From: Alphaproteobacteria bacterium
GTDB taxonomy: Bacteria > Pseudomonadota > Alphaproteobacteria > Puniceispirillales > Puniceispirillaceae
Reading direction: 5' to 3'
NCBI GenBank assembly: GCA_016780765.1
Contig: JADHLH010000015.1
Location: 1 to 36,885, forward strand
DNA: 36,885 nucleotides
In this document: positions 1 through 36,885 of the stretch, in pieces
Numbering within the stretch: position 1 is the first letter of the stretch
How the letters are laid out: every line of letters begins with the position of its first letter
The notes under the pieces: generated by a model
The model's input: only the letters and a program-made list of their open reading frames with translations
Databases searched by the model: none
Told to the model about the DNA's origin: nothing
Position numbers and translations under genes: made by a program

Positions 1-115
1 CTTGAACCCACCTCACTGCATCTGATTTCCTGCTGAAGGACTTGGTGAAACTCTGCCATCCAGCAACCCTTACTTGGGCATTCCAAGACCTGCCTCTTTT
101 ACGCACACAACCCAT
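1..115 (-). CDS. Tyrosine recombinase/phage-type integrase, N-terminal fragment (cut by window edge)
   Basis: The minus strand from an ATG at 115 stays open to position 1 (38 codons). It begins MGCVRKRGRSWNAQVRVAG and continues with a K-S-F-x-x-K-x-D-A pattern. This is the signature of the N-terminal arm-binding domain of tyrosine integrases, which typically read like 'IRKRGKSWQAQV...KTF..K.DA..WA'. An in-frame TAG five codons upstream fixes the start, and an AGAGG lies about 8 bases before the ATG. The catalytic domain would be left of the window and is not visible. The gene starts about 100 bp beyond the 3' end of tRNA-Arg and reads in the same direction, the usual layout of an element integrated at a tRNA 3' end. 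The family call rests on only 38 residues, so it is likely but not certain. Confidence 0.72.
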   Translation of the reverse strand, partial: MGCVRKRGRSWNAQVRVAGWQSFTKSFSRKSDAVRWVQ

Positions 116-130
116 CGATTTGACCTCTAC

Positions 131-150
131 TGTGTCAAATCTGTGTCAAA
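131..150. repeat. Two direct 9-bp repeats upstream of the left integrase
   Basis: TGTGTCAAA occurs twice (131-139 and 142-150) with an 11-bp period, which is about one helical turn. The repeats sit between the tRNA-Arg 3' end and the integrase start. On the minus strand each copy contains TTGACA. They may be integrase arm-type or excisionase sites, or part of the integrase promoter. The repetition is seen; the role is inferred. Confidence 0.45.
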
Positions 151-217
151 ACAAGGTTTCTCTGAGGACAGACTGATACCGTGAACTGGTAACTATCTGA
201 ATATATTGTCTAGGAAA

Positions 218-294
218 TGGCGCGCTCGGGAAGATTCGAACTCCCGACCCCCAGATTCGTAGTCTGGTGCTCTATCCAGCTGAGCTACGAGCGC
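218..294 (-). tRNA. tRNA-Arg (anticodon ACG)
   Basis: The minus strand folds into a full cloverleaf. The acceptor arm is GCGCTCG/CGAGCGC, followed by a G discriminator and an encoded CCA (220-218). The D-arm includes AGCTCAG..GAGC. The anticodon stem CCAGA/TCTGG encloses loop CTACGAA with anticodon ACG. The T-arm contains GGTTCGAAT-like TTCGAAT. It reads CGN arginine codons after A34-to-I editing. Its 3' end faces a recombinase gene, so it is a probable integration site. Confidence 0.97.
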
Positions 295-5342: not shown

Positions 5343-6019
5343 CCGGCGGGTCACACGGCGGCGACATGCCATCCGGTGCCGATGGGCCGGATGAGGCCGC
5401 GCTGGAGAATGGCCGGCTGCTGTTCGCCGGCGCCTGCGATTTCATTGCCGCTGCCAACAATATGAAGGTGTTGCCACCTGAAGGGCTGCCCGAGATCTGT
5501 TTCGCCGGCAGATCGAATGTCGGCAAGTCATCGCTGATCAATGCGCTGACCGGGCGCAAGACACTGGCACGTACATCACAAACGCCGGGCCGCACGCGGC
5601 AGCTGATCTTCTTTTCGCTGGCGGATCGCATTCAGCTGGTTGATCTGCCGGGTTATGGATATGCGCGGGCCCCCAAGACCGATATCAAGGCCTGGACAAC
5701 CCTGACCCGAAAATTTCTGGCGGGGCGGGCCTCATTGCAACGCGTCTTCCTGTTGATTGATGCGCGGCGCGGGATCGGCCCGGGGGATGCCGAAATCATG
5801 ACGTTGCTGGATGCCAGTGCGGTGTCCTGGGCCGTTGTGATCACCAAGGCAGACAAATTGAAGCCGGCCGCATTGGACGCCGTTTGCAACGATACCAGAG
5901 CTCGGATCACCACGCATGTTGCGGCCTTCCCCGAATTGTTTGTCACCTCGGCAGAAGCGGCCACGGGCATCGCTGAATTGCGGGCGCATATAGGTGCATT
6001 GGCACTGCCCCGCAGTTGA
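5339..6019 (+). CDS. engB: Ribosome-biogenesis GTPase EngB/YihA
   Basis: This TrmE-Era-EngA-EngB-type small GTPase is involved in 50S subunit assembly and division. The motifs are G1 GRSNVGKSS (about 58-66), G3 DLPGYGYA (about 101-108) and G4 TKADK (about 169-173). TPGRTRQ, before G3, covers the switch I threonine. The chosen GTG start overlaps the yidC stop by four bases; an ATG nine codons later (5366) is an alternative. The first 30 residues are poorly conserved in this family, so the start is uncertain. Confidence 0.93.
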   Translation: MTGGSHGGDMPSGADGPDEAALENGRLLFAGACDFIAAANNMKVLPPEGLPEICFAGRSNVGKSSLINALTGRKTLARTSQTPGRTRQLIFFSLADRIQLVDLPGYGYARAPKTDIKAWTTLTRKFLAGRASLQRVFLLIDARRGIGPGDAEIMTLLDASAVSWAVVITKADKLKPAALDAVCNDTRARITTHVAAFPELFVTSAEAATGIAELRAHIGALALPRS

Positions 6020-35080: not shown

Positions 35081-35122
35081 TATAAATGCGGGCGTATAAA
35101 TGCGGGTGTATAAATACGGGTG
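35081..35122. repeat. 14-bp tandem array upstream of tRNA-Thr
   Basis: TATAAATGCGGGCG, TATAAATGCGGGTG and TATAAATACGGGTG follow one another from 35081. Each unit carries a -10-like TATAAA. It lies between hemY and the predicted tRNA-Thr promoter. Confidence 0.93.
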
Positions 35123-35168: not shown

Positions 35169-35242
35169 GCCCGCTTAGTTAAATGGTATAACGGGTCATT
35201 CGTAATGATTAGTTGGGGGTTCGATTCCCTCAGCGGGCACCA
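35169..35242 (+). tRNA. tRNA-Thr (anticodon CGT)
   Basis: The cloverleaf is complete. The acceptor GCCCGCT/AGCGGGC is followed by an A discriminator and an encoded CCA. The D-arm is GTTA..TAAC. The anticodon stem GGTCA/TGATT encloses loop TTCGTAA with anticodon CGT. The T-arm is GGGGG-TTCGATT-CCCTC. It reads ACG threonine codons. The inverted-repeat arm starts on its final A, so it is the probable attachment site of the right-hand element. Confidence 0.95.
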
Positions 35243-35311
35243 CTCACCGTGTTACACCTGCCATAAAGCACCTTGATTCAAGCAGTTAGTCAATCACTGC
35301 TGAATTGGGTA
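35242..35311 (+). repeat. Left arm of a 70-bp inverted repeat
   Basis: These 70 bases match the reverse complement of 36816-36885 at 68 positions; mismatches are at 35264 (T/C) and 35284 (A/C). The match begins exactly at the last base of the tRNA-Thr CCA and ends 6 bp before the recombinase ATG. Inside are short dyads: GTGT-T-ACAC, TTGA-T-TCAA, and AGCAGT/ACTGCT spaced by 9. It is a candidate recombination site. Confidence 0.95.
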
Positions 35312-35317
35312 GGTCGC

Positions 35318-36445
35318 ATGGTAGGTCAAATAAACCATCATCTGTATCGCAAGCGTGGCTTCTACTACTTCTGTAGGCGTGTGCCGAAGGCATTGCTGGA
35401 ACATTATCCAAAGCCCCGCATCGTGGTGGCCTTGAAGACAAGGCAGTTCCGTGATGCCTTGAGGCAAAGCCAAATCATATCCAAGAGACTGGATGACCAG
35501 TGGTTCCATATGCAGCTGGATGCGATGGGGCTGGATAATGTGCAGAGCAAACTGTTCCAGCCTGTTAAGCTGTCTGCACCTCTGATGTCAGAAGCAACCA
35601 GCTTCTATCTGAGATTGAAGGGCGACGGTAAGGACAAGGTCTTCATCCGTGCAGCCCAACGTAATGCTGCCTCAGTAATTGAGGTATTGGGCGACAGACG
35701 CATCAATGACTATGCGTCATCAGAGGCTGGCAAGCTGCGTGATGTGCTGCTGGACAGAGGACTGGCTGTTACCTCTATCAAGAGGATGTTCGGGTCTGTG
35801 AAAGCCATCATCAATCTGGCAATGGCAGAGCATGGCATTGAAGGGCGCAATCCCTTTGCCAGCATCTATATGCCGGATGAGATGCCAGAAGAACGCCAGC
35901 CAATACCTGTGGATGCCATCAGACGAATCCAGAAGGAGTGCATGACCGCAGATGATGAGAACAGGTGGCTGCTTGCTCTTATCAGCGACACAGGCATGAG
36001 GCTGTCAGAGGCTGCTGGGCTGGCCAGAGATGACATCGTGCTACACACAGACATACCCCATATCATTGTCCGCCCCCATCCGTGGAGGCGTCTCAAGACA
36101 AAAGGCAGTGAAAGGCTAGTGCCATTGGTTGGGGCAAGCCTGTGGGCTGCCAAGAGACTGCAACAGCATGATAGTAGCTATGCCTTCCCCCGATACTGCG
36201 ATGGCAAAACATGTAACGCTAACTCAGCCAGTGCTGCTCTTAACAAATGGCTGAAGCCAAGAGTGAACAAGCATGCCGTGGTGCATAGCCTTCGTCATTC
36301 CATGCGAGACAGGCTACGTGCAGTTGAATGTCCATCAGACATCATCGACCAGATAGGTGGATGGTCATCATCAACGGTGGGTGCATCCTATGGCAAAGGC
36401 TTTGAACTGCCTGTGCTGGCCAAGTGGATGAAGATGATGGAGGGG
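35318..36445 (+). CDS. Tyrosine recombinase/integrase (tRNA-Thr-associated)
   Basis: This 375-residue site-specific recombinase is read from the ATG just inside the inverted-repeat arm, with TAGG a few bases upstream. A TTG-initiated form from 35273, inside the arm, would be longer. Its stop codon is TAG at 36446-36448. The N-terminal segment LYRKRGFYYFCRRVPKAL (about 9-26) is typical of integrases with a DUF6538-like start. A SAM-like core-binding domain follows. Catalytic residues are R228 (TGMRLSEA), K262 (KTKGSER), H323 and R326 (HSLRH), W349 in place of the second His (GGWSS), and nucleophile Y358 (ASYG). All are present, so the enzyme looks intact. Codon use is less GC-rich than the neighbours, consistent with transfer. 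Confidence 0.92.
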
Positions 36446-36472
36446 TAGTGGTGAATTCTAAAAACCCAGCAC

Positions 36473-36766
36473 CTACAACTGATACCCCTTTCCCAAAAAG
36501 TACCTTGAAATACCGTAGGAATAAATCAATAGAAAAACTAGGTTCACCCATTTTAACTGAGGTTCGGTGCGTAACCACGCACAGTAAATCCAAATCAAAC
36601 AAAACGGGAAGGACAAAAACATAGTGAGTGGGTACCAATCAAAAATGATTGCTATAGCGCTTAATAAACCAAGTAATAGGGCAATATTTTTTAGTATTTT
36701 TTCTGTTTTTACAGAGATTTCAGAGGGTAATAAAAATTTAAAAACTGCGTTAACTAAACTGTCCAC
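36473..36766 (-). CDS. Small three-helix membrane protein, AT-rich cargo ORF
   Basis: This 97-residue minus-strand ORF reads inward from the right repeat arm and converges on the recombinase gene, 24 bp away. Three hydrophobic segments are visible (about 27-43, 47-65 and 73-90), with Trp/Tyr near their ends. This resembles small DUF6552-type three-helix proteins, a tentative likeness. The start must be the GTG at 36766, because TAA directly precedes it; AAGG lies about 10 bases upstream. Base composition is markedly AT-rich compared with the rest of the window. The overlapping plus-strand frames look less protein-like. Function unknown. Confidence 0.55.
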   Translation of the reverse strand: MDSLVNAVFKFLLPSEISVKTEKILKNIALLLGLLSAIAIIFDWYPLTMFLSFPFCLIWIYCAWLRTEPQLKWVNLVFLLIYSYGISRYFLGKGYQL

Positions 36767-36815
36767 TTACATGTCGCCTTATGAAAAACTTATTACTGAG
36801 TTTCAGTATCTTAAA

Positions 36816-36885
36816 TACCCAATTCAGCAGTGATTGACTAACGGCTTGAATCAAGGTGCTTTGTGGCAGGTGTAACACGGTGAGT
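36816..36885 (-). repeat. Right arm of the 70-bp inverted repeat, running to the window edge
   Basis: This is the inverted copy of 35242-35311, 68/70 identical, with the match unbroken at the last base of the window. The next base outside would correspond to the second C of a tRNA CCA if the symmetry continues. It is therefore a truncated view of a longer repeat. Confidence 0.95.

Follow-up and report, generated by a model that had tools for sequence, protein, structure and literature searches.

Alphaproteobacterial elements integrated at tRNA genes carry an inverted copy of their attP site between integrase and cargo

Introduction

Genomic islands that integrate at tRNA genes, including the tycheposons, have a tyrosine recombinase beside the tRNA and metabolic or defence cargo, and they occur in marine plankton hosts; such islands generally duplicate the core of the attachment site at both ends (PMC10872708). 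Two direct att copies are therefore what one expects of a tRNA island. The family of elements described here resembles these islands in its tRNA-adjacent tyrosine recombinase and in its cargo and hosts. It differs from the islands in what lies between the integrase gene (int) and the cargo, where there is another core within a whole attP that is inverted, so that three att copies are present, one of them inverted and complete.

In ICEclc, Pcirc reads intB13 once the ends of the element have joined in the circle. The promoter is listed for intB13 and placed at the opposite end of ICEclc (PMC2892462). The likeness to our family is that a right-end promoter-like sequence, predicted from a positional consensus of 54 copies of the sequence called RE' below, would face int across the joined att site. 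The difference is that the right end of our elements is duplicated, inverted, inside the element, and the predicted promoter would also act while the element is integrated.

The inverted repeats of the yeast 2-micron plasmid carry the FRT sites, and recombination between them gives rise to two isomers and to double rolling circle replication (PMC3147054). Our elements are similar in that two inverted recombinase sites would divide the circle, to judge from the arrangement of integrated copies. In contrast to the Flp/FRT system, their sites are attP sites, which serve for integration into tRNA genes as well, and the host is bacterial. Among integrated copies the two isomers are far from equal, with orientations at 76 to 1, and we do not claim membership.

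RIT, GInt, SE and Tn554 elements also combine tyrosine recombinases with inverted repeats; they carry two to three recombinase-family genes and repeats of about 13-34 bp at their outer ends (PMC10214605). On the other hand, our family has one int per element, among the elements annotated, and its repeats are long and lie at an internal site. Searches for an inverted or second attP, for DUF6538 and for SAR116 integrase islands found no such layout in the open-licence literature, a body that leaves the primary tycheposon paper outside. This widespread family of marine bacterial elements is apparently undescribed.

Results and Discussion

The tRNA-Thr locus of the window

The window, by which we mean the whole stretch of DNA analysed, is the entire contig G000:C18 (36,885 nt) of a 2.25-Mb genome, and its right edge is the contig end. 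The following features lie next to that edge.

35169..35242, + strand: tRNA-Thr(CGT), the integration target, on the attL side (ARAGORN)
35229..35242, + strand: att core, the final 14 nt of tRNA-Thr, CTCAGCGGGCACCA (comparison with relatives)
35243..35317, + strand: left arm, the int-side half of attP (repeat pairing of 35242-35311 and homologous arms in relatives)
35318..36448, + strand: tyrosine recombinase, 376 aa from ATG 35318 (DUF6538 and Phage_integrase domains)
36473..36766, - strand: gene for a 97-aa hydrophobic (membrane) protein (coding supported by the substitution pattern)
36816..36885, - strand: right arm (arm'), the left arm inverted (repeat search and contig end)

A repeat search of the window gave inverted arms at 35242-35311 and 36816-36885 that are 70 nt long, 97% complementary and spaced 1504 nt apart. 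The two arms differ at 2 positions, and chance is ruled out for a match of this length and identity (E = 1e-24 within the locus). This agrees with the preliminary description, which had reported an inverted repeat anchored on the tRNA-Thr with its left arm starting on the last base of the tRNA (35242) and its right arm still matching at the window edge: the right arm does run to 36885, the contig end.

That end lies one base inside the inverted core. In relatives the att core stretch recurs twice, inverted downstream of int and direct where the element ends. For the window's own element, the inverted core (core') and all that follows it, namely RE', cargo, RE and attR, are outside the window, and our statements on them rest on relatives. 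On this basis, the predicted sequence past 36885 is the remainder of the inverted core, TGGTGCCCGCTGAG (whose first base is 36885), followed by RE'. A whole inverted tRNA-Thr, which had been anticipated past the right edge, is not what the relatives have; they carry just its last 14-17 nt, the att core, and then RE'. Just upstream of the tRNA-Thr, at 35081-35122 of the window, a 14-nt unit (TATAAATGCGGGYG) is present three times in tandem.

ATG 35318 is the best start for the recombinase, rather than TTG 35273. The protein belongs to the tyrosine recombinase / phage integrase family (Phage_integrase PF00589, E = 3e-14), and it has every catalytic residue, as first described: R230, K262, H325, R328, W351 and Y360 are intact and are invariant among 20 relatives. 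The closest solved structures by sequence are PDB 6EMY, 6EMZ and 6EN0 (E about 1e-6), entries titled only "Int protein", which we take to be the Int of Tn1549. The conjugative transposon Tn1549 has low target specificity. Its Int is thus presumably the closest solved relative of the window recombinase by sequence; the window's family is tRNA-specific, unlike Tn1549.

The gene for the 97-aa protein is convergent with int and is the first gene met when reading inward from the right arm. Each arm is thus followed by a gene reading inward, as had been observed, with the recombinase read from the left arm and the 97-aa gene from the right. A homologue in G030, a member of another genus, is 86% identical in amino acid sequence; of the codon changes between the two genes, 31 are synonymous and 13 non-synonymous, with most differences at third codon positions. 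Because the homologue is conserved and synonymous and third-position changes are in excess, we consider this ORF to be a genuine gene, in line with its earlier reading as an AT-rich membrane ORF carried as cargo. The homologue, at 1500-1775 of locus L018 (G030:C27), adjoins a guaA-like gene as judged by eye. No integrase of the window family was detected near it in L018, and the passenger gene may have come from such a chromosomal copy.

The unit in related genomes

Relatives were picked by similarity to the window integrase and came from SAR116, Roseobacteraceae and other Alphaproteobacteria. In an initial DNA search of 61 genomes, several relatives had the integrase followed by an inverted arm. 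Junctions extracted from relatives lead past the inverted arm into the inverted 3' end of the tRNA and then into new sequence, which we named RE'. We also used a de novo arm test, in which an inverted repeat is sought between the regions upstream and downstream of int without prior arm sequence. Across relatives of 43-93% protein identity, most gave a positive result.

Named genomes were also scanned and yielded 80 loci that partly overlap the first set. The carriers were SAR116/Puniceispirillum and a number of isolates, among them Ruegeria conchae TW15, Ruegeria sp. HKCCA6707, Donghicola, Thioclava, Tranquillimonas, Thalassovita, Nitratireductor and Maritalea. With duplicates removed, the arm-recombinase-arm unit, which the preliminary description had proposed to look for in related genomes, recurs with inverted arms at 83 of 112 distinct int loci (83 of the 101 where downstream sequence sufficed). 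Inverted arms were absent from 67 of 67 distant phage integrases examined as a control.

Architecture of the integrated elements

At 48 of the 56 loci with an annotated tRNA, the final 14 nt of the resident tRNA recur without mismatch, in inverted orientation, in the region after int. These exact matches represent 26 different cores, and the tRNAs are those for Thr, Leu, Arg, Phe, Gly and Asn. When the cores of other amino acids were swapped in as a control, there were 0 exact matches. The preliminary description had considered that the arms might be recombination sites; they are parts of inverted attachment sites, and at these loci the core at the far arm is that of the resident tRNA.

The integrated layout is tRNA-core-arm-int-(gene)-arm'-core'-RE'-cargo-RE-core-chromosome. 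A third core, in direct orientation and preceded by the same RE, closes the elements whose far end was located, and elements with both ends span 4.3-18 kb. In the 12 elements with both ends known, the inner att is RE plus core plus arm; RE' and RE match over 197-394 nt, with 95-100% identity in 8 of the 12. The inner site, which lies between int and cargo, therefore duplicates in inverted orientation the entire attP that would be re-formed on excision. We are highly confident of this architecture. The three-att layout is conserved although the integrases have diverged and the tRNA targets are many.

Single-cell or metagenome assemblies account for many of the carriers, and contigs frequently stop at the inner site, which could point to an artefact of assembly or amplification such as an MDA chimera or a contig-end palindrome. 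This explanation can be set aside with near certainty. The arrangement is present in single-contig genomes: G016 has a 12.7-kb element at a tRNA-Arg, with arms of 97 nt at 100% identity and RE of 304 nt at 99.7%, and G023 has a 4.3-kb element at a tRNA-Thr, with arms of 72 nt at 100% and RE of 197 nt at 100%. It is also carried by isolates of Ruegeria, Thioclava, Thalassovita and Tranquillimonas. In the window, moreover, the arms differ from each other, and the boundaries coincide with the tRNA core. That contigs stop at the inner site is to be expected, RE and RE' being long repeats: assemblies break at the inner core and RE' because these are repeated at the far end and are longer than the usual assembly words. 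At other loci, contig ends are often found 0-450 nt from the outer end of the right arm. The layout thus explains the assembly breaks at these islands in SAR116 and relatives.

Another explanation, raised in the preliminary description, is that two related elements were inserted head to head at one tRNA and left functionless remnants. tRNA islands do accrete, and contig C30 of the same genome carries RE-core-arm followed by a decayed int start. However, the identical arrangement occurs at 83 loci despite unrelated arm sequences, the inner core tracks the tRNA, the copies are near-identical inside each element and there is a single closing core per element. The inner site copies the element's own attP, and a direct third core follows 4-18 kb on. 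We consider head-to-head insertion very improbable and take the inner site to be part of the element. In C30 (locus L008, positions 1-643) the RE contains a promoter-like TTGACG-N17-GATTCT and is followed by a Thr-type core, the arm and the decayed int start. As a candidate for the right flank of the window's tRNA-Thr island, C30 was rejected, for the chromosomal genes on it do not adjoin tRNA-Thr in relatives.

The relatives are tRNA-targeting elements by their ends, with the tRNA 3' end rebuilt at one end and a direct repeat at the other, and by empty-site comparison. The opposite end of the window contig contributes to the latter.

1..294, - strand: tRNA-Arg(ACG), with another integrase beginning immediately after it (MGCVRKRGRSWNAQVRVAGW...)

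The sequence after this tRNA-Arg(ACG) reads '...ATATATTCAGATAGTTACCAG...GGTTGTGTGCGTAAAAGAGG'. In G016 the same sequence and integrase start are found after the far core of a 13.3-kb family element at the same tRNA. Judged by its sequence, the tRNA-Arg end of the window is the unoccupied-site equivalent of the location of this 13.3-kb element. For the tRNA-Asn element of G001, relatives yielded just one flank of an empty site at once.

A promoter-like sequence in RE

Aligned at the core, the RE' sequences have the consensus TTGACa-N16-TAaaCT, with the -35 about 84 nt from the core and aimed at core, arm and int. TTGAC was found within -100 to -81 of the core in 35 of 54 non-redundant RE', as compared to 1 on the reverse strand. 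The -10 is weak in Roseobacteraceae. Promoter scores were 8.29 for RE versus 5.18 for shuffled sequence, while the arm region from tRNA to int scored 4.95 versus 5.30; no promoter signal above shuffles was thus detected between tRNA and int. From consensus and position, we infer that a sigma70-like promoter is conserved in RE. It had been proposed that the tRNA promoter feeds either the recombinase or the membrane protein. This is not supported, as the promoter-like sequence sits in RE' and the tRNA-int stretch is no better than shuffles. It could still be that int is transcribed by read-through from the tRNA, but the arm gave no promoter signal.

At loci where the gap between int and arm' is at least 150 nt, the longest ORF was read from arm' in 35 of 50. 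Domains encoded by the genes read from arm' include DUF2938, DUF1330, methyltransferase, HpcH/HpaI aldolase, DnaJ and glycosyltransferase, and the 97-aa gene of the window fits this pattern. At 33 of 83 loci, arm' follows directly after int (gap <65 nt). Since these have essentially no gap, an antisense RNA to int would be the sole possible product there.

Orientation of int and the role of the inner site

In 76 distinct loci int points away from the adjoining tRNA, and in 1 (L361) it points toward it. L361 (1500-3975, AH-135-F23) consists of a tRNA-Arg, a gene for a 319-aa secreted-looking protein, int reversed, arm, core' and RE'. RE'-core'-arm stands in front of int, and the arm on the tRNA side does not match. 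This sole flipped locus, which is without a matching tRNA-side arm, may have a different history.

The preliminary description had proposed a two-state switch. The geometry permits it, and inversion by the enzyme is inferred; free switching would give about 50:50 and is contradicted by the observed orientations. A freely reversible 50:50 switch is thus excluded at equilibrium because the orientations stand at 76 to 1. The same ratio is equally expected if the inner site never recombines. The bias therefore means either that the inner site has never recombined or that the orientation is rectified.

One possibility for the first case is that the inverted attP is a static regulatory module, in which a promoter in RE behind int would serve the convergent gene, an antisense RNA that silences int, or both. 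The conservation of the promoter-like sequence and its direction toward the 3' end of int, the convergent gene in many elements, the near-absolute orientation bias and the 33 loci where antisense RNA would be the sole product are all consistent with this. On the other hand, a promoter needs neither a tRNA-identical core, which is present at 48 of 56 loci, nor a copy of the arm, while strand exchange by Int needs both. We regard a purely static module as unlikely, though worth keeping in view.

The window contains the left portion of an integrative element that targets a tRNA gene, from a family that when integrated reads attL - int - (gene) - attP(inverted) - cargo - attR. We favor the second case, in which the integrase would act on both sites and invert its own segment, with this inversion operating as a one-way latch, a reading to which we give about an even chance. 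In the excised circle, the two inverted attPs would separate int from cargo as two segments, comparable to the two inverted FRT sites of the yeast 2-micron plasmid, and attP x attP recombination would change the relative orientation of these segments. In the circle (RE-core-arm-int), int would be driven by the RE promoter. Once the element is integrated with int facing away from the tRNA, int would be severed from RE and hence be off, and the promoter of the inner RE' would read back into the int segment, giving a transcript of the opposing gene or antisense RNA to int. Had the element landed the opposite way, RE' would drive int, and int would flip the segment via attL x attP' until it was silenced. 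The near-uniform orientation would be the outcome of such a latch, as int would be expressed only when facing RE' and its expression would flip it away. In general terms, and more tentatively still, with confidence just short of even, we propose that these are bacterial integrative elements with two inverted attP sites whose Int inverts its own gene against the cargo and the outer promoter; an integrated copy would act as a self-silencing orientation latch, and the excised form would be an invertible circle resembling the 2-micron plasmid. This design is testable: it would couple the integration state to expression of the integrase and passenger gene, and it may be a bacterial parallel to 2-micron.

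Median arm identity is 96% within a locus versus 72% to the nearest other locus, and the within-locus pair was the closer one at 68 of 77 loci. The likeness within loci suggests that something keeps the two att copies alike, either mutual recombination or selection on both as Int substrates. Some elements have mismatched arms, as in the tRNA-Phe element of G016 and in G031, which counts against the latch reading.

Homogenised repeat copies are also compatible with a role of the two inverted attPs mainly in copy-number amplification, by Flp/2-micron-style inversion during replication of the circle (double rolling circle). The topology is that of the 2-micron plasmid, where site-bearing inverted repeats halve the circle and the recombinase gene is beside a site (PMC3147054), and tandem arrays of elements occur in G023 and G027. 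Amplification would leave the orientation bias and the convergent gene unexplained, however, and we consider it improbable as the main role. The latch that we favor would account for the bias.

Cargo

Cargo genes common to several elements were found in both orientations relative to int, most clearly in L150 versus L197. This is suggestive of inversion, although these are single genes that could have been acquired separately. In L137 and L143 and in two Ruegeria, conservation covers the int segment and about the first 110-165 nt of RE', and the cargo is wholly replaced. Because the cargo is replaced altogether between such close pairs, a comparison for whole-cargo inversion is limited to single inverted genes.

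In locus L069 (G002:C122), at 5423-5640, a tRNA-Arg(CCG)-like sequence has the 3' end CCGCCCCCGGGCACCA in place of the normal end; this tRNA gene was apparently damaged or re-ended through integration of a related element.

No relaxase or conjugation genes were recognised among the ORFs of six complete elements read by eye. Among the cargo genes of the elements read are those for an Mza-like defence system, for glycosyltransferases, and for a glycosidase together with a sugar ABC transporter. The order arm-int-arm'-core' can serve as a marker for the true ends of many genomic islands that carry defence and metabolic cargo. The Mza-like cargo belongs to the tRNA-Arg element of G016 (L155 onward) and comprises MzaB, MzaE, a DNA cytosine methyltransferase and a large helicase-like protein.
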